Shown in pieces: positions 1,304-20,913 of a DNA stretch of 21,247 bases. Origin of the DNA: a virus. Numbering within the stretch: position 1 is the first letter of the stretch; the number at the start of each line of letters is the position of its first letter. The DNA lies in the IMG/VR virus record IMGVR_UViG_3300027782_000429, positions 1 through 21,247 of that record; one strand, written 5' to 3'. The position numbers and the translations under genes are program-made. The notes under the pieces are model-generated. The model did no database searches and was not told where the DNA came from. It saw nothing but the letters and a program-made list of their open reading frames with translations.

Positions 1304-1367
1304 TGTGGATAACTTGTGGATAAACCTGTGGATAACTAAGATTTTCACGGTATTGACATGTGGATAA
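1304..1367 (+). other. four exact DnaA boxes
   Basis: TGTGGATAA, the reverse complement of the consensus DnaA box TTATCCACA, occurs at 1304-1312, 1315-1323, 1327-1335 and 1359-1367, all in the same orientation. The first three start 11-12 bases apart, about one helical turn. A near-match in the opposite orientation, TTTTCCACA, is at 1073-1081. Together with the AT-rich DNA to the left this is a plausible DnaA-dependent origin or a DnaA titration site. Confidence 0.75.
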
Positions 1368-1381
1368 CTATGTGATATCCT
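1353..1381 (+). promoter_or_regulatory. promoter overlapped by a DnaA box
   Basis: TTGACA (1353-1358), a 17-base spacer and TATCCT (1376-1381) lie exactly six bases before the ATG at 1388, predicting a leaderless mRNA. The fourth DnaA box (1359-1367) sits directly after the -35 element, so DnaA binding should repress this promoter. The -10 box matches the consensus at four of six bases. Confidence 0.5.
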
Positions 1382-1387
1382 TGATGT

Positions 1388-1507
1388 ATGACATGTACAA
1401 AGTATGGCTGTGACTACGAATTAGACCTTGATGGACAGGTTACATGTACTGTTTGTGGTGCTATGGATGATGATAGACAACCAGTAAACCCTCATGTGAT
1501 AGAATAG
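1388..1507 (+). CDS. 39-residue zinc-ribbon mini-protein
   Basis: The protein has two cysteine pairs, C3-x4-C8 and C20-x2-C23 (TCTVCGAM), separated by an acidic hairpin-like segment, as in single zinc ribbons. No Shine-Dalgarno sequence precedes the ATG at 1388. Instead a -10 box ends six bases upstream, so the transcript probably begins at the ATG. It is the first gene after the DnaA-box cluster, and a DnaA box overlaps its promoter. A role in replication or transcription control is an inference from position only. The stop overlaps the -10 box of the next gene. It is very short, but the cysteine pattern and promoter geometry make chance unlikely. Confidence 0.6.
   Translation: MTCTKYGCDYELDLDGQVTCTVCGAMDDDRQPVNPHVIE
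1497..1505 (+). promoter_or_regulatory. extended -10 promoter for the gene at 1512
   Basis: TGA followed by TAGAAT (1500-1505) is an extended -10 element that ends six bases before the ATG at 1512. I see no good -35 box at the usual distance. The spacing predicts a leaderless mRNA. Confidence 0.5.
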
Positions 1508-1511
1508 AGTT

Positions 1512-1703
1512 ATGCTAACATTAACTCTTATACTAATTACTTGGTATGCCACAAAGGTATACTATACAAAAACCTTAACTATCCAAGCACCAGCAAAAGA
1601 AGAAGGTCCTATGGTCCATGCAAGATGTGCTAAGTGTTCTCAAACCATCTACACACATAAAGACAACCTTCGTGCTCCATACTACTGTCTAGCCTGTAAG
1701 TAG
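1512..1703 (+). CDS. small membrane-anchored zinc-ribbon protein
   Basis: This 63-residue protein has an N-terminal hydrophobic helix (residues 1-16, LTLTLILITWYATKVYY), a basic linker, and a C-terminal zinc-ribbon pattern CAKC ... CLAC with about 18 residues between the pairs. It would be anchored in the cytoplasmic membrane with the metal site probably inside, since basic residues follow the helix. There is no Shine-Dalgarno site; a TAGAAT box lies six bases upstream, so the mRNA is probably leaderless. The next gene is on the opposite strand and ends just after it. Function is unknown. Confidence 0.65.
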   Translation: MLTLTLILITWYATKVYYTKTLTIQAPAKEEGPMVHARCAKCSQTIYTHKDNLRAPYYCLACK

Positions 1704-1711
1704 CCAGGCTA

Positions 1712-2029
1712 TCAAACCTCTTTAATCGCCTTATTGACCATACGGATCAACATTCTCCTGGTTACTTTAGTTGCATCAAATGTCTCCGTATATCCACCAT
1801 GAGGCATTTGTTCTTTAGTTAGATAGTGTCCGTATCTATCCCTTAGTGTTCTTAGTACTATAGTTTCTACTTCTTTTGCCCTATACCGTTCAAAAAAGTG
1901 CCAATACTTAATTAAGATCCAACCCTTGGTCCTGTGGCTTGCAAACCTTTTACCTGAGATATCTGATATGCCTATCTTAATAGCCTTATGCTCTGGACTG
2001 TATAGTAGGTATAAGACTGCTTGCTCCAT
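1712..2029 (-). CDS. T5orf172/GIY-YIG-like nuclease-family protein
   Basis: The 105-residue protein reads YLLYSPEHKAIKIGIS, then R-F-x-x-H, a W-x-x-x-K-Y-W segment, A-x-x-V-E-T, and a C-terminal GGYTET. This matches the T5orf172/MUG113 branch of the GIY-YIG superfamily, where a Y-x-x-x-x...K-I-G-I-S core is followed by a helix with a conserved E (here in the AKEVETIVL segment). Members are found in phages and are thought to act on DNA. I chose the ATG at 2029 and not the one at 2092, because a TATAAT on the minus strand (2036-2041) ends six bases upstream of it and the family core begins directly after. It is the only minus-strand gene in this stretch and shares a divergent promoter region with the gene at 2057. 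Confidence 0.75.
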   Translation of the reverse strand: MEQAVLYLLYSPEHKAIKIGISDISGKRFASHRTKGWILIKYWHFFERYRAKEVETIVLRTLRDRYGHYLTKEQMPHGGYTETFDATKVTRRMLIRMVNKAIKEV

Positions 2030-2050
2030 GCATACATTATAGGCTATACT
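2021..2050. promoter_or_regulatory. compact divergent pair of leaderless promoters
   Basis: On the minus strand TATAAT (plus-strand ATTATA, 2036-2041) ends six bases before the ATG at 2029. On the plus strand TATACT (2045-2050) ends six bases before the ATG at 2057, with a weak -35 TTGCTC (2021-2026). The -10 boxes are three bases apart and the start codons 27 bases apart, so only one promoter can be occupied at a time. Confidence 0.6.
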
Positions 2051-2056
2051 AGGCCT

Positions 2057-2221
2057 ATGCCATCCAAAAAGGAAAAACAGGATTTGCAACAAAAATATTT
2101 TAATAAAGTAAGATTAAATAATAAAGAACTCTGGAGCCTATGCTATATATGTTCCAAACCTAGATATTCCTTTAGCCCTGTAGAGAATATACCTATGCCT
2201 GTGTGTAAAGAGCATTCTTGA
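2057..2221 (+). CDS. 54-residue basic zinc-finger-like mini-protein
   Basis: The protein begins with a lysine-rich helix (PSKKEKQDLQQKYFNKV) and ends with C-Y-I-C ... C-K-E-H, a plausible four-ligand zinc site with three cysteines and one histidine. An upstream in-frame ATG at 2021 exists, but the ATG at 2057 fits the TATACT box located six bases before it and avoids overlap with the divergent gene. The stop codon TGA (2219-2221) overlaps the TTGACA of the next promoter. The family is not recognised; DNA or RNA binding is possible. Confidence 0.6.
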   Translation: MPSKKEKQDLQQKYFNKVRLNNKELWSLCYICSKPRYSFSPVENIPMPVCKEHS

Positions 2222-2246
2222 CATACCGTGGAATTTATGAGATAAT
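2218..2246 (+). promoter_or_regulatory. near-consensus promoter for the gene at 2253
   Basis: TTGACA (2218-2223), a 17-base spacer and GATAAT (2241-2246) end six bases before the ATG at 2253. This is the clearest example in the window of a strong promoter placed to give a leaderless transcript. Confidence 0.7.
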
Positions 2247-2252
2247 GGCTAT

Positions 2253-2468
2253 ATGAAGAAAAACGATGTAGATTTTGACAAACCTTTGCCTATGTATATT
2301 TTTGAGTCCTGTATCTATTGTGGTAGGTTTACTAGAACCAAGGACAAAGCCAAACTAATCCTATTTATGTATGATCATTATGGGGAAGATGGTATTAAGC
2401 GTTGTAATAAGACTTGGTATGGGGAGTTTGTATATACCTTGCTAAATTGGAAGCATAGAAATTATTAA
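2253..2468 (+). CDS. 71-residue hypothetical protein with CxxC motif
   Basis: The sequence has C-I-Y-C-G-R near residues 20-25 and a further cysteine in K-R-C-N, with aromatic-rich helices in between (FMYDHYGEDG) and at the C-terminus (WYGEFVYTLLNWKHRNY). It may bind one metal ion. The gene has its own strong promoter with a predicted leaderless start at 2253. Its TAA stop (2466-2468) overlaps the likely ATT start of the HNH gene that follows, so the two are probably co-transcribed and coupled. No family is recognised. Confidence 0.65.
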   Translation: MKKNDVDFDKPLPMYIFESCIYCGRFTRTKDKAKLILFMYDHYGEDGIKRCNKTWYGEFVYTLLNWKHRNY

Positions 2469-2928
2469 AAACAAATCTTTAAGGCATAAGTCAGAGCCAG
2501 AACATGGTACTCGCTCTGGTTATGATTGGCATAGACGAGACATGAAGCAAGAACCTTGCCTATCTTGTCAAGATGCCGAAAGATCTTATTGGAAAAACCA
2601 AAGAATTATTCGTAAGCATCAAATAAATACATTACGAAAGGACTGGAGATTTCGCACTCCTAATGCTAATAGGCATTTTCGTAGAAATAATACAGAGCCA
2701 GGAAACTATTCAGATGCTGATGTACTCTCAACATATGGTTTAGACTGTCATATTTGTCAGACTCCAATAGATTTAAATGCTCCAAGACAAGTAGGAAAAA
2801 ATGGATGGGAAAAAGGTCTTCATATAGATCATGTCTATCCTTTGTCAAAGGGCGGTTTAGATACTATTGAAAATGTAAGACCTTCTCACGGAAAATGTAA
2901 TATTATAAAGTGGGCAACTGTAGGATAG
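2464..2928 (+). CDS. HNH endonuclease with probable ATT start
   Basis: The C-terminal half is an HNH domain: C-H-I-C, then HIDHVYPLSKGG, N-V-R-P-S-H and C-N-I-I-K. The first conventional ATG is at 2542, but the in-frame sequence before it continues the protein with HGTRSGYDWHRR, directly followed by the cysteine pair PCLSC and A-E-R-S-Y. The pattern H-G-T-x-S-G-Y-x-x-H ... P-C-x-x-C is typical of the N-terminus of actinophage HNH-type proteins, so the real start must lie upstream. No ATG, GTG or TTG exists between the frame's TAA at 2443-2445 and 2542. ATT at 2464 (or 2461) overlaps the previous stop and is the best start. The full form has 154 residues; the ATG form has 128. A +1 frameshift from the previous gene is the alternative. 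The enzyme would nick or cut DNA, as homing or packaging-associated HNH proteins do. Confidence 0.7.
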   Translation: MKNKSLRHKSEPEHGTRSGYDWHRRDMKQEPCLSCQDAERSYWKNQRIIRKHQINTLRKDWRFRTPNANRHFRRNNTEPGNYSDADVLSTYGLDCHICQTPIDLNAPRQVGKNGWEKGLHIDHVYPLSKGGLDTIENVRPSHGKCNIIKWATVG

Positions 2929-2986
2929 TAACCAATGTTGCCCGTATAGGGCATGTGGAGGTTTGCTACTCTATTTTGCGCCGAAC

Positions 2987-3015
2987 TTTACATCTAACTT
3001 AGTTTATGATACAAT
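2987..3015 (+). promoter_or_regulatory. promoter for the gene at 3022
   Basis: TTTACA (2987-2992), a 17-base spacer and TACAAT (3010-3015) end six bases before the ATG at 3022. An AGGTTTG motif lies just upstream (2959-2965), where an activator or repressor could bind. The transcript is predicted to be leaderless. Confidence 0.65.
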
Positions 3016-3021
3016 TATTTT

Positions 3022-3699
3022 ATGTTTAAAAAAACTCCTGTGTTAAAATATGAGTCCTCAATAGAAGCATATCAAGATTCAATAGTTCCATCAAAAAAAG
3101 TTGTACCAGATTGGTATAAAAAAATTCCAAGGTGGCAAAATGGAATGAAACCAACAGTTAAACAATGTATGCCTTTTCTTGAGTCTTTAACTATTGGTTA
3201 TTTAATTACTTTACCTTACGATGTTTTTGTTAAAAACGACAATGGTGCACTACAATTGAGTTGGCCTGATTTTGTTAAGAATCACCCCGTTTTAAGAAAC
3301 AATGTTGCAGACATAAGGCTTGTTCCAGCAGGTCACTATGCAGCAGAATTTGAATGGGATTATAATGTTGCCTACACATTACCAAAAGGTTATAGTGCTA
3401 TTTTTACTCATCCATTTAACAGAAATGATTTGCCTTTCACGACTATAACTGGAGTTATTGATGGTGGAATAGTTATGCATCCTCATGGAAATCCTGGATT
3501 TTATATTAAAGAGGGATTTGAAGGATTGATTCCACAAGGAACTCCTATAGCCCAGTTGATTCCATTTCGTCAAGAAAACTGGAAATCTAAAAAAACACCA
3601 GGTTTAGTGGAGATTGCAGAGTCCCAATCAATGGGGAAAGGACTTGTTTTTAGTGGTTGGTATAAAAAAACATTTTGGGTACATAAAAAATATGAATAA
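3022..3699 (+). CDS. phage conserved protein, cupin/beta-sandwich-like
   Basis: This 225-residue protein has the layout of a family I know from many environmental phages: P-D-W-Y-K near residue 30, T-V-K-Q-C-M-P-F, a Y-L-I-T-L-P-Y-D segment, then PKGYSAIFTHPFNR, G-V-I-D-G-G, and I-P-Q-G-T-P-I-A-Q-L-I-P-F. The predicted fold is mainly beta strands, and the family has no established activity, though a cupin-like or jelly-roll enzyme or structural protein is possible. There is no signal peptide. It has its own promoter with a leaderless start. The 237-residue protein encoded at 5919-6632 has a comparable layout and may be a remote relative. A stop followed by a ribosome site links it to the small gene downstream. 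Confidence 0.75.
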   Translation: MFKKTPVLKYESSIEAYQDSIVPSKKVVPDWYKKIPRWQNGMKPTVKQCMPFLESLTIGYLITLPYDVFVKNDNGALQLSWPDFVKNHPVLRNNVADIRLVPAGHYAAEFEWDYNVAYTLPKGYSAIFTHPFNRNDLPFTTITGVIDGGIVMHPHGNPGFYIKEGFEGLIPQGTPIAQLIPFRQENWKSKKTPGLVEIAESQSMGKGLVFSGWYKKTFWVHKKYE

Positions 3700-3714: not shown

Positions 3715-3876
3715 ATGAGCCTAGACGATATGATATTACGAGAAGAGATTGCAAGAGCCATAGAGGCCATTCCAATTCAAGACTCTATTACGAACGCACT
3801 TGGTATGCGTATGCTTGCTGCAGAGGCTGCTAGAGGCGGTAACACCATGTTTGAGAGCCAGGTAGACTTTGAATAA
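3715..3876 (+). CDS. 53-residue hypothetical protein
   Basis: The ATG at 3715 follows a good Shine-Dalgarno AAGGAG (3698-3703, eleven bases away). The product is a helical protein (SLDDMILREEIARAIEAI, then ALGMRMLAAEAARG), probably a small alpha-helical bundle or partner protein. An ATTACGAA octamer (3787) lies within the coding sequence, where it encodes part of S-I-T-N. The gene overlaps the next mini-gene by 8 bases. No family is recognised. Confidence 0.6.
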   Translation: MSLDDMILREEIARAIEAIPIQDSITNALGMRMLAAEAARGGNTMFESQVDFE

Positions 3877-5555: not shown

Positions 5556-5675
5556 ATGTTATTAAATATACTTTGGGGTATGTTTTTTGGATACATAATT
5601 GCTACATTTCAAATAGCAAAACTTTTGGTTAAAAAAGGTTATCGTAGGTTTGATGAAATACCAGATAAAGATTAA
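5556..5675 (+). CDS. 39-residue single-helix membrane protein
   Basis: The ATG at 5556 follows the ribosome site AGGTGG (5542-5547). The product has one membrane helix (residues 2-18, LLNILWGMFFGYIIATF), then a basic region (KLLVKKGYRR) and an acidic tail (DEIPDKD). It converges with the minus-strand gene ending at 5672, the two stops overlapping. Possible roles include a small holin-like or host-modifying protein, but none is shown. Confidence 0.6.
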   Translation: MLLNILWGMFFGYIIATFQIAKLLVKKGYRRFDEIPDKD

Positions 5676-5878
5676 TCTAAAACCAGTGCATTATCAAGCG
5701 GTACTTCAATAGTACTTGGCTCTTGACATCTTCTACAGTATGATCTAGGGTGGTTGGTATATCTTTCTGCTGGTCCCGACAAAATTATCTGACCAGTTTT
5801 ATGCATACCAAGTAGTACATCATCTACTACTCTAGAATATACGATAGGGGTTAAAGTTCCCCTGCAAAATGCACACAT
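5672..5878 (-). CDS. 68-residue zinc-ribbon protein
   Basis: Two cysteine pairs, M-C-A-F-C at residues 2-5 and C-R-R-C near residues 48-51, flank a beta-rich middle with conserved G-M-H-K-T-G. This is a full zinc-ribbon layout. On the minus strand TGG-TAAACT (plus-strand 5885-5893) is an extended -10-like element ending six bases before the ATG, so the gene may be leaderless; no good -35 box is seen. It is the last gene of the minus-strand module. Function is unknown; transcription or DNA-associated roles are typical for such ribbons. Confidence 0.65.
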   Translation of the reverse strand: MCAFCRGTLTPIVYSRVVDDVLLGMHKTGQIILSGPAERYTNHPRSYCRRCQEPSTIEVPLDNALVLD

Positions 5879-5918
5879 GTTATAAGTTTACCATACATGT
5901 AAAGTTATTTTTAATATA

Positions 5919-10639: not shown

Positions 10640-11596
10640 TTGGCTAATATAGTTTTTCTTGGCAATTTTGAAGTGTCTTATAGTAGTGAGAATCATCATG
10701 CTAGTAGTCTAGAGTCTTTAGGCCATACCGTGACAAAATTGCAGGAGCGTAAGGCCAAGACACAAACCATCCTAGAAAAAGCATCAACCTCTGATCTATT
10801 TATCTGGGTACACACACATGGCTGGGAAACCATTGGTAACATTACAATGGATGAAGTTCTTAAGCAACTAAACGCCTCTGGTGTGCCTACAATGACATAC
10901 CATCTGGACCTTTGGTTTGGCTTAGATCGTCAGAAAGATCTCAAGCATGATAGTTTTTATAGAACTATTGGACACTTTTTTACTGTAGATAAACTTATGG
11001 CTGATTGGTTTGATCACAATACCGCAGTAAAAGGCCACTTCATGCCTGCGGGAGTATACGATAAGGAATGTTACATCCACCCAGACTACGACACACAAAA
11101 CTTTGAGTACGATGTTATTTTTGTTGGCAGCAAGAGATATCACCATGAACATAAATATCGTCCAGAACTAATTGACTTCTTAAGAAAGACATATGGCAAA
11201 CGATTCCTTCACGTTGGTGGAGATGGCGACACAGGGACTATCCGTGGGGATGCATTAAACCGTATCTATGCTAAGAGTAAGATTGCAGTTGGAGATAGTC
11301 TTAACATAGGCTTTGAGTATCCCTATTACACTAGTGATAGATTGTTTGAGTCTACTGGTCGTGGTGGTTTTACCATCTACCCAGAAATTAAGGGACTAGA
11401 TGAATACTTTATGCCTGATGAAGTTGTGTTTTATAAGCATGGAAACTTTAATGACTTAAGAGATAAGATAGATCAGTATCTTGAAAACTCTTTGGTAAGA
11501 GAAAGAATCAGAGTCAACGGTCACAGCCGCACAAAGAAAGAACACACTTATGTCCATAGATGGACTGCAATCTTAGAAGAGTTGGGTATTAAATGA
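10640..11596 (+). CDS. CgeB-like GT-B glycosyltransferase
   Basis: The 318-residue protein starts MANIVFLGNFEVSYSSENHH, a GT-B N-terminal Rossmann fold opening, has a W-V-H-T-H-G-W segment, then D-V-I-F-V-G-S-K-R near residue 155 and R-L-F-E-S-T-G-R-G-G-F near 235, which matches the C-terminal sugar-donor domain of the CgeB/Glyco_trans_1_2 family. It starts at TTG with GGGG six bases upstream. Its stop overlaps the start of the epimerase gene (ATGA). A nucleotide sugar would be its donor; the acceptor may be another sugar, a protein or a surface polymer. Confidence 0.8.
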   Translation: MANIVFLGNFEVSYSSENHHASSLESLGHTVTKLQERKAKTQTILEKASTSDLFIWVHTHGWETIGNITMDEVLKQLNASGVPTMTYHLDLWFGLDRQKDLKHDSFYRTIGHFFTVDKLMADWFDHNTAVKGHFMPAGVYDKECYIHPDYDTQNFEYDVIFVGSKRYHHEHKYRPELIDFLRKTYGKRFLHVGGDGDTGTIRGDALNRIYAKSKIAVGDSLNIGFEYPYYTSDRLFESTGRGGFTIYPEIKGLDEYFMPDEVVFYKHGNFNDLRDKIDQYLENSLVRERIRVNGHSRTKKEHTYVHRWTAILEELGIK

Positions 11597-12480: not shown

Positions 12481-13186
12481 AATGAGAAAAGTAATAATCA
12501 ATGGTGAGTTTGAGATTACTCTACCAGAGCATCGTGCTGCACGTCCTGATTGGTATCAACCACATGGTTGGGAAAAGCCAAGACTAAAACACATGTCTGA
12601 AAATATTTTTTCTGGAGATGTTATGTATTATGTTGGTGCAGAAGAAGGCGAGTTTGCTGCACTATGCCAAATGTGGGGTGCGGAAGTAGTTGTATTTGAG
12701 CCAAACCCCAAAGTCTGGTCACACTTTCCATTGCTTTGGAGTGCAAACAATTTAGATCTTCCAATGGTTTGTATTCCTGGATTTGCATCTGATAAGATAA
12801 ACAGTCTTTCAAGAATATATTATAATGAATGGCCACCAGAAGTTAACGATGTAATTGAAGCAGCCCATGGATTCAAAGAACTATACCTTGAAGGAGAAAC
12901 CTATGGTCAGATTACTATAGATTCTTGTGTATATGATCATGGTATTAAGCCACCTACCGCCATCTCCTTGGACGTAGAGGGTAGTGAATGGAGGGTCCTA
13001 GGAGGGGCTGAGAGGGTGCTTAGAGAGCACAAACCAAAGATTTGGCTATCTGGACACCCTGAGTTCATGCTACAGCAGTGGGATGAATCTTTATATAATC
13101 TTAGACAATGGATTAAAGGATTAGGTTATACTGAAATAATTTTAGACTATCAGCATGAGGTTCACTTATACTATGAATCAATATAA
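12473..13186 (+). CDS. FkbM-family methyltransferase
   Basis: The 237-residue protein contains the SAM-binding motif G-A-E-E-G-E-F (variant of GxxxG, following Y-Y-V), E-V-V-V-F-E-P-N-P-K, and the later A-I-S-L-D-V-E-G-S-E-W-R-V-L-G-G block, which are the signature of FkbM methyltransferases. These O-methylate sugars or lipids, often in glycan biosynthesis. The opening (RRAARPDWYQPHGWEK area) is shared by some phage and cyanobacterial versions. Within this operon it would methylate a sugar made or transferred by the neighbours. It overlaps the epimerase by 8 bases and the next gene by 14 bases. Confidence 0.85.
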   Translation: MTEMRKVIINGEFEITLPEHRAARPDWYQPHGWEKPRLKHMSENIFSGDVMYYVGAEEGEFAALCQMWGAEVVVFEPNPKVWSHFPLLWSANNLDLPMVCIPGFASDKINSLSRIYYNEWPPEVNDVIEAAHGFKELYLEGETYGQITIDSCVYDHGIKPPTAISLDVEGSEWRVLGGAERVLREHKPKIWLSGHPEFMLQQWDESLYNLRQWIKGLGYTEIILDYQHEVHLYYESI

Positions 13187-16153: not shown

Positions 16154-16312
16154 CTAGGATAGAACCTTTATTAGTATAGCATATCCAGCCCATAGCCCTA
16201 CAATTCCTGCGACTCCCGCAAAAACTGGTGGTGCTGGGACTGGCAATTTGAATGCAGCAAATACTACGCCACATCCAAAACCTGTTAGTGTTGACAACAA
16301 TATATCTCTCAT
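16154..16312 (-). CDS. XapX-domain small membrane protein
   Basis: The frame from ATG 16312 to TAG encodes 52 residues: a helix TLTGFGCGVVFAAFKL, then PVPAPPVFAGVAGIVGLWAG. The P-V-P-A-P-P-x-x-A-G-V-x-G-I-x-G sequence is the hallmark of XapX (DUF1427) proteins. XapX-type genes are found in several actinophages close to holins. ATGA at 16309-16312 shows overlap with the upstream gene. Confidence 0.75.
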   Translation of the reverse strand: MRDILLSTLTGFGCGVVFAAFKLPVPAPPVFAGVAGIVGLWAGYAILIKVLS

Positions 16313-16755
16313 TGTTTTATTTCATCCTCTGGCAATAGTGTTTTTAATTCTTTATATGCTTTTGATATATTTTTCATAGATGGATAGTCTGGTCTTGACA
16401 TAGAAAGCGCCTCTCCATATTCATCAAAGTGAGATATATCTGCATCAACATCACTAACAAACTTAGTTAATCCTTTTTGAACACTTTCAATATATTCAAA
16501 TGCCCATAGTCTAGAATCAGAAAGAAACTTAATAAAGTTTTCTTTATGTATTGAATCATCTGAATCTTCTTTTATCTTTGTAGACTTAGTTATATCAACA
16601 TACTCTTGAAGCAAAGTCTTTTCAATAAAAAGTTTTGAAACATCTCTTTTAAGTTTAATGGACTGTCTTAAAACTAATAGGTATGATGCTGCAAAGCAAA
16701 CTGACAATGTTGCAAAAACAACAATAAAAATATCTTTCATATCACCACTCCACAT
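16309..16755 (-). CDS. N-terminal membrane-anchored helical protein
   Basis: The 148-residue product has a membrane helix near residues 9-29 (FIVVFATLSVCFAASYLLVL), then a charged, mainly helical tail (IKLKRDVSKLFIEKTLLQEY ...). The ATG at 16755 lies six bases after a perfect TATAAT and so fits a leaderless mRNA; the ATG at 16740 has a GGAG about nine bases upstream and would give 143 residues. It is the first gene of a three-gene membrane cassette (with XapX and the holin-like protein), and overlaps the XapX start. It could be a lysis accessory or signalling protein; the family is not recognised. Confidence 0.65.
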   Translation of the reverse strand: MWSGDMKDIFIVVFATLSVCFAASYLLVLRQSIKLKRDVSKLFIEKTLLQEYVDITKSTKIKEDSDDSIHKENFIKFLSDSRLWAFEYIESVQKGLTKFVSDVDADISHFDEYGEALSMSRPDYPSMKNISKAYKELKTLLPEDEIKQ

Positions 16756-16761
16756 GTTTTA

Positions 16762-16790
16762 ATTATATCCTAACACTACGGCTTTGTCAA
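16762..16790 (-). promoter_or_regulatory. perfect sigma70 promoter for the membrane cassette
   Basis: On the minus strand TTGACA (plus-strand 16785-16790), a 17-base spacer and TATAAT (16762-16767) match the consensus exactly. The -10 box ends six bases before the ATG at 16755. The promoter overlaps the end of the preceding GT gene, so it separates the lysis-like cassette from the upstream operon. Confidence 0.75.
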
Positions 16791-17690
16791 ACTATAAAAA
16801 TCTTTAAAGTTAGTATTAGTAAAGATCTCATACTCAGCAAGGGTTCTAACGTTTCCAGCACCAAACACACCTTCTTCTTCACCACAAAGAATTCTTTTTT
16901 GTTTGTTATATGATATTTCTTCTATTTCTTTCCAAGATATTCCACGTAGATTTCTATCTTTCCATATCTTACTATATCCTCCACGAGAATAAAAGTGGTA
17001 TACAATATTTTTTGAAGGAGAGTATATGTCCCATCCCCTTGTCCATGACCTCATAGCAAAGCAAACCTCTTCACCAAAGAAACTAATTTCTGAATCATAG
17101 GGCACTTCATTAACTATTGAACCATCTGAAAACATAAAGCCACCAAGGACTGTCTCAGAAAGTTCTGGGTTTTCTTTTAGTTTACTATCAAACTCAAATC
17201 TTTCTGCTGTCCATTGCTTTCTTTTATTTAATAATATCCTTTGTCTAGTTGGATATGACTTTATTTTTGGATTATTTTTAACTAAAAACATACCGCCATT
17301 TCTTTCTGGCTCGTATGGGGCTGGAAAGTATGACAATAATACACGACTATGACTAGATATATTCTTAGCCCTATTTAACTGATCAATACATATTGCATCC
17401 CAACCAGGAACAAACCTTGTATGTGAATCAATTTGAAGAAAATACTCTTGCCCAGAGTATAGTTCCATTGCTTTTGCTCTTGCAAATCCTGCACCTTTTG
17501 CCTCTTTTGGATGCATCTTGATTAAGGACATGTTTTTAATTGTGTTAATGTCAAATAGTTCTGAGTCAACCCCTTGATGAACAACCCCAAAATATAGGTT
17601 GTCTGGATTGTTAGCATTTTCAATAGCACTTTTAATTGTCCACTGAAGTTCTGGATCACGATAAGATGCAATAGATATAAATATTCTCAT
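16776..17690 (-). CDS. GlcNAc-transferase-like glycosyltransferase
   Basis: The 304-residue protein starts RIFISIASYRDPEL, followed by T-I-K-S-A-I-E-N-A-N-N-P-D and F-G-V-V-H-Q-G. It carries D88-S-H90 for metal and nucleotide sugar binding in the F-L-Q-I-D-S-H-T-R-F segment, F-F-G-E-E-V, and Y-H-F-Y-S-R. This is the pattern of Pfam GlcNAc transferases (Skp1-GlcNAc transferase type), which use UDP-GlcNAc. It shares one base with the halogenase's stop (TAATG), showing coupled translation. It probably glycosylates a protein, a glycan or a small molecule related to the halogenated product. Confidence 0.8.
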   Translation of the reverse strand: MRIFISIASYRDPELQWTIKSAIENANNPDNLYFGVVHQGVDSELFDINTIKNMSLIKMHPKEAKGAGFARAKAMELYSGQEYFLQIDSHTRFVPGWDAICIDQLNRAKNISSHSRVLLSYFPAPYEPERNGGMFLVKNNPKIKSYPTRQRILLNKRKQWTAERFEFDSKLKENPELSETVLGGFMFSDGSIVNEVPYDSEISFFGEEVCFAMRSWTRGWDIYSPSKNIVYHFYSRGGYSKIWKDRNLRGISWKEIEEISYNKQKRILCGEEEGVFGAGNVRTLAEYEIFTNTNFKDFYSLTKP

Positions 17691-19219
17691 TAAATATAAA
17701 CGGTATCTCTTAAAAATTCATAATGTGTGGGAGACTTTTTAATAATTTTTGCCCATTCATTTATTTTAATAGATCTAGCATCTGAAAGTATTTTCATTTG
17801 TTTTTTAATATTTATTCCTTTTTGATGAGATATGATTTCTAGATCTGTTAAGAAATAATTTCTAAAACCCCACCCCATGGGAACAGAAGAAATATGTTTA
17901 CCATAAAGATTATACAAGTATTCTAAAAGTTTGTCTGAAGACTCTTTTGATGTTATTGATTTCCAATATTCAGTATCATTTCTTTGTGACATAAAATAAT
18001 GTAGCGCAACAAAAAGATATTGATTTTCAAAATTTCTAAAAGATCTTATGTTATATCTATCTATATCAAATTGAGTTATAATTCCATCTCTTTGTAATGA
18101 ATCAACAAGAAACATAGCAAACATATGAACTTGTGCCAGTCCAGTGCTTTCAAGTGGCTCTAAAAATCCAGCAGCAAGACCAAGAGCAACAACATTTTTT
18201 ACCCAAAACCTTTTATAATGACCATTTTTAATTTGAATTTTTCTAAATTCCATATTTTTAGACCTGTTTGGATTATAGCAAACCATGTTTTTTGAGTCTA
18301 AATGTTTTTTAAATTCATCAAGTGCAGAATCTTCATCTATAAAATCAGTATTAAAAACATAGCCAGATCCAATTCTTGACCATAATGGTGTATTCCATAC
18401 CCATCCATTTCCTAATGCGGTTGCATTTGTAAAAGTTTGCATTTCTTTGTTCTTGTCAGTATACTCAATTGGTGCTGCATATGCAGCATTATTTGGTAAT
18501 AACTCTCTCGTTGATATAAATTCTTCTTTCATAAATCCACCAAGTAGTATACTTTTAAAACCAGAACAATCTACAAACAAGTCTGCATAAATTTCTCTGC
18601 CATCTTCCAATTTTAGATACTCTATACCGTTTTCATTACCAGAAATATCTACAACAGTTCCAATCACTCTGCTAACGCCACGTGGTATTGCATAATTGTC
18701 TGCAAGCCAAGAACCAAAAAGAGATGCATCAATCTGATAGGCTATATCACGAGATGGCTTAAAAGGATACATATCTATATTATCTTGCATAAATACTCTG
18801 TTAGTATATAATGATTCTGATTGTGGATAATAATATTTAACAAAATTGTCATCAGGTATTTCTGGATTTATTGCCTTAAGAACTTGCCAATCCATTAAGC
18901 CACTATCTGTTTCTTCTAGGTTTGGCAAACCAAATGTATAAAAAACTGTAGAGTTATCATTTTTAACAAAGTTTGTAAAACCTAGTCCAACTTTTAATGA
19001 TCCATTGACATCTTTTAAAAAATCACGGTGCGATATTCCTAAATAAGATAGCCATTCTACAAACTCAGCAATAGTGCTTTCACCAACTCCTACTGTTGGT
19101 ATTGATGAACTTTCAACAAGTGTTATTTTTTTATTTGGGAATGCCCTTATAAGAGTTGATGCAGACATCCATCCAGCGGATCCTCCACCAAGAACTACAA
19201 TACTCTCAACTTTGTTCAC
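17690..19219 (-). CDS. flavin-dependent (tryptophan-type) halogenase
   Basis: The 509-residue protein has the FAD motif G11-G-G-S-A-G16-W, P-T-V-G-V-G-E-S-T (41-49), a putative catalytic lysine K76 in S-L-K-V-G-L-G-F-T-N-F, D-C-S-G-F-K-S (217-223), the halogenase signature in the form W273-V-W-N-T-P278, and E354-P-L-E357-S-T-G. Lys and Glu correspond to the K79 and E346 of PrnA that hold HOCl and orient the substrate. The signature normally reads WxWxIP; here T replaces I. It would use FADH2, O2 and a halide to halogenate an aromatic compound. Start is GTG, overlapping the upstream stop (GTGA). No flavin reductase is nearby, so a host reductase must supply FADH2. Similar genes are known in cyanophages. 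Confidence 0.85.
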   Translation of the reverse strand: MNKVESIVVLGGGSAGWMSASTLIRAFPNKKITLVESSSIPTVGVGESTIAEFVEWLSYLGISHRDFLKDVNGSLKVGLGFTNFVKNDNSTVFYTFGLPNLEETDSGLMDWQVLKAINPEIPDDNFVKYYYPQSESLYTNRVFMQDNIDMYPFKPSRDIAYQIDASLFGSWLADNYAIPRGVSRVIGTVVDISGNENGIEYLKLEDGREIYADLFVDCSGFKSILLGGFMKEEFISTRELLPNNAAYAAPIEYTDKNKEMQTFTNATALGNGWVWNTPLWSRIGSGYVFNTDFIDEDSALDEFKKHLDSKNMVCYNPNRSKNMEFRKIQIKNGHYKRFWVKNVVALGLAAGFLEPLESTGLAQVHMFAMFLVDSLQRDGIITQFDIDRYNIRSFRNFENQYLFVALHYFMSQRNDTEYWKSITSKESSDKLLEYLYNLYGKHISSVPMGWGFRNYFLTDLEIISHQKGINIKKQMKILSDARSIKINEWAKIIKKSPTHYEFLRDTVYI

Positions 19220-19449: not shown

Positions 19450-19664
19450 TACTCTTCTCGTTTCCAATGAAGGTATGATTTAATATAAACAGCAGCATAA
19501 GCCAAGGCACTAAATATAAAACCATATTGGTCTGTGATTAAGGCATATGCTATCCACAAACATTCATTGAATAACAAAACAAACCATCCCCAGATGGTCT
19601 TGCGACCAACAAAAAAGATTCCTGTTACTCCTATGACGGCAAGAAGCCATGACCAATATTGCAT
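19449..19664 (-). CDS. small polytopic membrane protein
   Basis: The 71-residue product has three hydrophobic stretches: YWSWLLAVIGVTGIFFVG, TIWGWFVLLFNECLWIAYAL and YGFIFSALAYAAVYIKSYL, ending in HWKREE. The W-G-W and lone G-R-K motif with Q-Y-G-F recall PnuC- or SWEET-like small membrane proteins carried by actinophages; a transport function is not shown. It overlaps its neighbours by one base at each end (TAATG). Confidence 0.65.
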   Translation of the reverse strand: MQYWSWLLAVIGVTGIFFVGRKTIWGWFVLLFNECLWIAYALITDQYGFIFSALAYAAVYIKSYLHWKREE

Positions 19665-19948
19665 TATTTCTCCATTGTCAATGCTTGCCAGGTGTTAGCC
19701 CAGTCTTGCTTAGTTTTATGTTTATTAAACTCTCTAGATATATTTCCAAGTTCAAGGAATACACCACCCCATACACCATACTCTTTACCAGAAACACCAT
19801 TAGCAAAGCAAACCTTTGATACTGGACATCTTTGACACATTGAATCTACAATTGGGCGTACATCTACATTGTCTTCATACTTATCAAAAAAGATATTAGT
19901 ATCAAGACCCAAGCATACGGCTTCATCTTTCCATAAATGTTGTTTCAT
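19664..19948 (-). CDS. WhiB-like iron-sulfur transcription factor
   Basis: The 94-residue product carries C12, then C38-x2-C41-x5-C47, the four cysteine ligands of a [4Fe-4S] cluster, followed by the family turn G58-V-W-G-G62 and a charged C-terminal helix. These are the defining features of WhiB-like (Wbl) proteins, which exist only in Actinobacteria and their phages and act through the principal sigma factor. Phage examples include WhiBTM4, which interferes with host WhiB2. The C-terminus lacks a long basic DNA-binding tail, so it may act by sigma binding or competition. It starts directly after the stop of the gene at 19949. Confidence 0.9.
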   Translation of the reverse strand: MKQHLWKDEAVCLGLDTNIFFDKYEDNVDVRPIVDSMCQRCPVSKVCFANGVSGKEYGVWGGVFLELGNISREFNKHKTKQDWANTWQALTMEK

Positions 19949-20522: not shown

Positions 20523-20913
20523 TTAGTTTCCCATTCTTTAAGTTATCCAGGATGAATAACATCTTATCTATTTCTCTCTTTGACATTTTAGTTGTATCTA
20601 AAGGTCTTCCAGTTTCTGGTCTGACCTTTCCATCTACTGTATCTCCAACATAGAACATGTTATTTGATACCCAATATGCCTTTTGATCTATTATGACTAC
20701 CTTAGTTGTTTGTTTATCTTTCCAAATTTTGGACTGAGATGTAACAACTTTTTCATCAAAAATGTCTTTAAAGAAAAAATCTTTTAATATATTATGCATA
20801 TCGCTTTGACGATATAGCACTTTACTAAAAGACTTTTTTCTTTTTTTGTTCATTACTATAATTATAGATGAAAAAGAGATCAATGTCAAGCCGATAATTA
20901 AAATAGCCTGCAT
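20497..20913 (-). CDS. membrane-anchored hypothetical protein (138 residues)
   Basis: An N-terminal membrane helix (ILIIGLTLISFSSIIIVM) is followed by a basic stretch (NKKRKKSFSK) and a soluble domain with strand-rich V-V-I-I-D-Q-K-A-Y-W-V and a C-terminal helix (R-E-I-D-K-M-L-F-I-L-D-N-L). It would stay in the cytoplasmic membrane with the domain inside. AGGAGAAAAA precedes ATG 20913. No family recognised. Confidence 0.65.
   Translation of the reverse strand: MQAILIIGLTLISFSSIIIVMNKKRKKSFSKVLYRQSDMHNILKDFFFKDIFDEKVVTSQSKIWKDKQTTKVVIIDQKAYWVSNNMFYVGDTVDGKVRPETGRPLDTTKMSKREIDKMLFILDNLKNGKLNDSGSTGN

Follow-up and report, generated by a model that had tools for sequence, protein, structure and literature searches.

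Eight genes in a 21,247-base virus fragment, IMG/VR record IMGVR_UViG_3300027782_000429 (about 36% guanine plus cytosine, GC), start at an ATG that lies exactly six bases behind a −10 promoter hexamer. This whole stretch is called the window below, and the six-base spacing N6. The eight sites very probably mark leaderless genes of an actinobacteriophage that carry promoters of the host sigma-A type. Leaderless messenger RNAs (mRNAs) are the favored reading because the geometry, the conservation and the exclusion of Shine–Dalgarno (SD) sites fit a transcription start at the A of the ATG. Sequence, spacing, conservation, SD exclusivity, restriction to ATG and enrichment at the first genes of units (unit heads) were all computed directly.

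Promoter boxes at eight gene starts

A sequence-only reading of the window had placed a −10 hexamer six bases before the ATG of at least seven genes, with a possible eighth at 5878 on the minus strand, and all eight coordinates and spacings are correct (Table 1). A scan for TANNNT-N6-ATG, proposed with that reading, gave a significant excess at gene starts but not over the window as a whole. TANNNT stands at N6 of 9 of the 44 gene starts in the window, where 1.5 are expected from the other offsets between 0 and 35 (binomial P = 1.4e-5); these nine exclude 2253, whose box is GATAAT, and include two probable chance matches, at 13155 and 19948. The former lies inside an upstream open reading frame (ORF). 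The latter, the minus-strand gene of a WhiB protein, was rejected as a further leaderless gene, its TACGGT being the coding end of the gene upstream. Counted on both strands without regard to genes, the bare motif occurs 35 times against 25.6 expected from shuffles (shuffle maximum 42), and because this excess is not significant the whole-window count was discarded as evidence.

Two features absent from the sequence-only reading add to the promoter character of the sites. A −35 element lies at exactly 17 nucleotides (nt) in four of the eight, as TTGACA (1388, 2253 and 16755 minus) or TTTACA (3022), and an extended −10 (TGN) is present in five. A TTGACA-like −35 element 16–18 nt from the −10 box, as in sigma-70/SigA promoters, is thus found at 1388, 2253, 3022 and 16755 minus and is missing or weak at 1512, 2029 minus, 2057 and 5878 minus. 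The promoter of 16755 minus matches the consensus at 12 of 12 letters. In the window, TT[GT]ACA-17-NANNNT occurs 8 times, compared with 1.8 in shuffles, and four of the eight occurrences are at N6 of an ORF. TANNNT beginning about 12 base pairs (bp) before the start codon is found at every site except 2253 (7/8). At 1500–1505, TAGAAT overlaps the stop codon of gene 1388.

The claim that none of the sites needs an SD site held for seven of the eight, which lack SD-like letters, but 16755 minus matches AGGA of ...TTAGGATATAAT, a match that falls within the promoter. Genes inside operons had been said to carry SD sites. About half of them do (18/36 in the window and, in relatives, 51% of the genes that lie close together), and the rest do not.

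Table 1. Promoter boxes, promoters and associated open reading frames in the window (aa, amino acids)
Feature	Position	Strand	Remark
−10 TATCCT	1376–1381	+	N6 to ATG 1388
−10 TAGAAT	1500–1505	+	N6 to ATG 1512
−10 TATAAT	2041–2036	−	N6 to ATG 2029
−10 TATACT	2045–2050	+	N6 to ATG 2057
−10 GATAAT	2241–2246	+	N6 to ATG 2253
−10 TACAAT	3010–3015	+	N6 to ATG 3022
−10 TAAACT	5890–5885	−	N6 to ATG 5878
−10 TATAAT	16767–16762	−	N6 to ATG 16755
Promoter TTGACA-17-TATCCT of gene 1388	1353–1381	+	kept in relatives L004, L148, L160, L163
Zinc-ribbon-like 39-aa ORF, predicted leaderless	1388–1507	+	weak Pfam zinc-ribbon match, E = 0.03
−10 TAGAAT and 63-aa ORF (1512–1703), predicted leaderless	1500–1703	+	N6 in relatives
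−10 TATAAT and GIY-YIG-like 105-aa ORF from 2029, predicted leaderless	1712–2041	−	phrog_681, E = 1e-10
−10 TATACT and 54-aa ORF (2057–2221), divergent from 2029 minus	2045–2221	+	N6 in relatives
Promoter TTGACA-17-GATAAT (2218–2246) and 71-aa ORF (2253–2468), predicted leaderless	2218–2468	+	
Element CTATTTTGCGCCGAACTT (2971–2988), promoter TTTACA-17-TACAAT (2987–3015) and ORF (3022–3699)	2971–3699	+	
−10 TAAACT, extended TGG, and 68-aa ORF from 5878, predicted leaderless	5672–5890	−	
Full-consensus promoter TTGACA-17-TATAAT (16790–16762) and 148-aa ORF from 16755, predicted leaderless	16309–16790	−	
Contrast gene, internal, SD AAGGAG	3715–3876	+	promoter at N6 where the copy in relatives heads a unit
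Promoter TTGACA-17-TATAAT (20889–20861), ATG at N7 (20853)	20853–20889	−	kept in 34/35 relatives

Gene starts across related viruses

A profile of 1,326 starts, from 198 viral loci and the window, showed one sharp, single peak at N6, located at unit-head genes. Counted per gene family, 29.5% of those at unit heads and 9% of the internal ones have TANNNT at N6; other offsets mostly give 1–9%. Among unit heads in relatives, SD sites accompany 6 of 137 N6 starts, compared with 141 of 426 comparison starts (P = 1.5e-13), and N6 is found at 136 of 496 ATG starts but only 1 of 67 GTG or TTG starts. A −35 element with at least 5/6 matches precedes 45 of the 136 N6 unit heads and 17 of the 360 others. 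Read from the promoter side, 45 of 114 distinct TTGACA-17-TATAAT sequences have an ATG exactly at N6. Ten related contigs contain 30 copies of the complete TTGACA-17-TANNNT-N6-ATG pattern and none of its backward reading.

Of the ATG starts in G002 and G007, two whole contigs of related viruses, 11.8% and 10.5%, respectively, have the motif at N6, where other offsets give about 3%; leaderless candidates make up about 10–14% of the called genes. As a control of equal GC content, phage T4 (34% GC) has N6 at 1 of 75 annotated starts. In parts of the genomes of Rhodococcus phage Grayson and Streptomyces phage Satis, there was little or no N6 signal. The peak at unit heads, together with the conservation in relatives described below, supports the earlier proposal that first genes of units use leaderless starts.

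Conservation of individual promoters

The two largest families are the most informative. In the 2029 minus family, 54 distinct upstream sequences are near-random except for TATAAT at −12 to −7; the start codon is aligned in 49 of them, of which 46 have the box at N6, and other columns carry mostly 0.1–1.1 bits. In the 16755 minus family, all 40 distinct upstream sequences keep TTGACA, 17 nt, TATAAT or TATACT, and N6, while the spacer between the boxes varies.

Smaller families show the same spacing. N6 was found in 10 of 12 distinct relative upstreams for gene 1388, in 7 of 10 for gene 1512, and in 4 of 6 for gene 2057, which has the weakest −35 of the set. Gene 2253 has TATGAT or TATGCT at N6 in both of its relatives (2/2). 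ORF 3022–3699, a predicted leaderless gene of 225 aa in the phrog_7084 family, has a TGATACAAT-type −10 box 5–7 nt from the ATG in 14 of 24 relative upstreams whose surroundings have diverged, and a TGATACAAT-like box is retained across proteins of about 50–73% identity. Tailed viruses of the haloarchaea Halorubrum and Haloarcula also carry homologues of this gene, at about 30% identity and across a wide gap between hosts. For gene 5878 minus, the box at N6 is TAGAAT or TAAACT in 8 of the 20 upstream sequences from relatives.

Exceptions and contrast genes suggest that the mode of initiation follows gene position, with a promoter at N6 where a gene heads a unit and an SD site or stop–start coupling where it stands behind another gene. 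Gene 1388 in relative L034 follows another gene and has no promoter, gene 2057 otherwise follows another gene without a promoter, and most remaining copies of 5878 minus apparently lie behind another gene. For gene 3715, the 30 distinct upstream sequences from relatives include 14 with an N6 promoter, and these promoters have many different sequences.

Two further promoters depart from this layout. That at 20889 minus is embedded in codons 9–18 of an SD-led ORF with a transmembrane segment, starting at 20913. Its codons TTG, ACA and ATA are kept in 25 of 26 relatives while neighboring codons vary, and it may give rise to a second, shorter product. A 12-of-12 consensus promoter, TTGACA-17-TATAAT, at 1125–1153 on the plus strand has no ORF at N6 and reads into noncoding DNA. 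No known RNA was placed behind it, because an Rfam search of the window matched two transfer RNAs (tRNAs) only.

Proposed leaderless initiation and its alternatives

The proposed mechanism would begin at a host-type sigma-A/sigma-70 promoter, in which about 17 nt separate TTGACA from TANNNT and the −10 is often extended (TGN). With the −10 box ending six bases before the ATG, RNA polymerase would start at the A or within 1–2 bases of it, and ribosomes would load directly on the 5′ AUG without an SD site. Unit-head genes would use this leaderless start, and the same genes behind another gene would use SD or stop–start coupling. We infer the transcription start from the promoter geometry, and with it that the genes are probably transcribed by the host polymerase and translated without a leader.

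A scanned AT-rich genome could yield such a pattern by chance, as the bare motif count within the shuffle range and the two spurious-looking window matches might suggest. However, chance would hardly confine a sharp peak to gene starts and to one offset, keep the motif in dozens of upstream sequences that have otherwise diverged, or place −35 elements 17 nt away, and T4, with the same GC content, all but lacks the pattern. Conservation refutes it for 1388, 2029 minus, 16755 minus and the 3022 family; 2057, the weakest case, may alone be due to chance, and overall we consider chance extremely improbable.

The promoters could instead be real but serve very short leaders or a downstream start codon, so that the genes are not strictly leaderless. 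Several observations pull in this direction and weigh against strict leaderlessness. Gene 16755 minus has a second in-frame ATG 15 nt after the first, with an SD-like GGAG between them, making a short leadered start possible; two N-termini (MWSGDI, MWSSDI) have no second ATG. The distance from the −10 box to the ATG varies from 5 to 7 nt among members of the 3022 family, and at the embedded 20889 minus promoter only 14 of 26 relatives have ATG as the N7 codon. Against the main reading more generally, genes 2057 and 5878 minus are without a clear −35 element. To this are added two properties of the data: gene starts came from a home-made gene caller, and relatives were recruited by homology to feature-bearing genes, which inflates the pooled rates and makes the two whole contigs, at about 10–12%, the fairer estimate. 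On the other side, the large families show no variation of the ATG at N6, and GTG, TTG and SD sites are rare among N6 starts, as expected only if that codon starts translation. Short leaders or downstream starts are therefore an unlikely explanation, and leaderless mRNAs remain the preferred one.

Upstream elements and the regulon question

The sequence-only reading had called the sites a regulon, which was not borne out. The eight sites share a sigma-70-type core promoter but no common operator, and a search for a shared operator or regulator site among them found nothing beyond the promoter core. What speaks for joint control by one phage or host regulator comes from the relatives. CGCCGAA, the core of CTATTTTGCGCCGAACTT, precedes 10 families with N6 starts, compared with 5 of 193 control families, and a DnaA-box-like TGTGGATAAC lies upstream of N6 starts in 5 gene families. 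However, each recurring element touches only one promoter of the window. CTATTTTGCGCCGAACTT has a single site there, before the 3022 promoter, and 0–2 sites per related genome, and CGCCGAA has one plus-strand site. With only the core promoter letters common to all eight sites, a true regulon is very unlikely.

CGCCGAA was likewise rejected as a genome-wide operator, and because it is present in only 0–2 copies per genome it looks like part of a conserved intergenic cassette with changing genes behind it. In the window (2936–3021) and in relatives, this cassette comprises a GCCC..GGGC hairpin, AGGTTTGCTACTCTATTTTGCGCCGAACTT and the promoter, often with a second CGCCGAACT in the −35/−10 spacer, and the following gene differs among phages. 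The DnaA-box-like TGTGGATAA at 1359–1367 lies in the −35/−10 spacer of the gene 1388 promoter. It is one of four copies at 1302–1375, within a 700-bp noncoding stretch, and this cluster is a possible replication origin.

No early-only set of genes is visible either. Leaderless-type starts occur in all parts of the two related whole contigs, and a purely early set is argued against because the G002 candidates include glycosyltransferase-, polynucleotide-kinase- and tail-fibre-like proteins.

Some short words are over-represented in the window. ATTACGAA occurs 10 times on the plus strand and 0 times on the minus strand (0.7 expected on each), and is also strand-biased in G002 (1 versus 11, with 7 of those within the last 5.9 kilobases (kb)). 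CAAACCT occurs 19 times and AGGTTTG 13 times (about 1.3 expected each).

Virus and host

The window encodes the WhiB protein, tail-like glycine-rich genes, two tRNAs and sugar-related genes; related contigs reach 95–115 kb. The WhiB gene has been proposed as an actinophage indicator (PMC10202952). In the window it matches PF02467 at 19664–19948 on the minus strand with 44.1 bits, compared with a Pfam cut-off of 23.6. Because of this score we assign the window to an actinophage, in agreement with the earlier suggestion of a phage of actinobacteria. The virus is of lake type. The host is placed to the level of Actinobacteria; GC content and WhiB prompt the guess that it is a freshwater member of the Nanopelagicales. 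A single scan of genome contigs with the epimerase at 11593 as query returned no actinobacterium among its matches. The fragment also carries a tryptophan-halogenase-like gene (17690–19219, minus strand; PF04820, E = 1e-97).

Implications

The leaderless architecture might act as a plug-in socket for gene exchange in this phage lineage, a tentative proposal that we hold to be rather less probable than its opposite. Promoters and ORFs could reassort freely, because an ORF would need only to start with ATG and to be placed six bases behind a −10 box, and would bring neither leader nor SD site with it. A gene under this arrangement would switch between leaderless and SD or coupled initiation with its position. 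Signs for the socket are the homologues of gene 3715 behind many different N6 promoters, the one cassette before 10 families, and a promoter closely similar to that of 2253 in front of the gene-3022 homologue in L034.

For the abundant actinophages that have not been cultured, the spacing offers a rule, requiring sequence only, by which start codons and promoters can be picked; in these phages, gene callers that rely on SD sites are likely to misplace starts or lose short first genes. One gene is also seen to switch initiation mode with position, so that the evolution of leaderless initiation can be traced in a fast-evolving lineage.

Comparison with known systems

A literature search on phage promoter mapping with leaderless transcripts found nothing. 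Recurring start-proximal elements with SigA-like promoters before several genes also occur in Cluster K mycobacteriophages, as the ESAS/SAS elements (PMC3203893, PMC11373665). SAS, 13 bp long, is of the kind of a ribosome-binding site, and ESAS is an inverted repeat of 17 bp; the sites described here differ in spacing and sequence and are not one repeated sequence. Neither a 13-bp SAS within 3–9 bp of the start nor 17-bp inverted repeats were found at them, and the six bases before the ATG vary from site to site and among relatives.

Cluster O mycobacteriophages have predicted leaderless promoters PL1, PR2 and PL2 that include a divergent leaderless pair (PMC4351075), the same layout as 2029 minus and 2057 plus. 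They have few promoters per genome, whereas the candidates here reach the proportion of called genes given above and were tested across many relatives. In the published signature of leaderless genes, the first T of TANNNT lies about 12 bp ahead of the start codon; such genes average 19% in Actinobacteria (PMC3160421), and about 14% of M. smegmatis genes are leaderless (PMC7148126). The TA-led genes of Actinobacteria and Deinococcus-Thermus (Zheng et al. 2011, PMC3160421) resemble the present sites in the TANNNT position, the lack of an SD site and the many genes involved. Bacterial and archaeal genomes were the subject of that survey, whereas the present pattern is found in a phage lineage of about 36% GC, with a near-consensus −35 element at some sites. 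The leaderless spacing belongs to the known habits of actinobacteria and does not amount to a new regulatory system; this lineage provides unusually clean comparative evidence for it.

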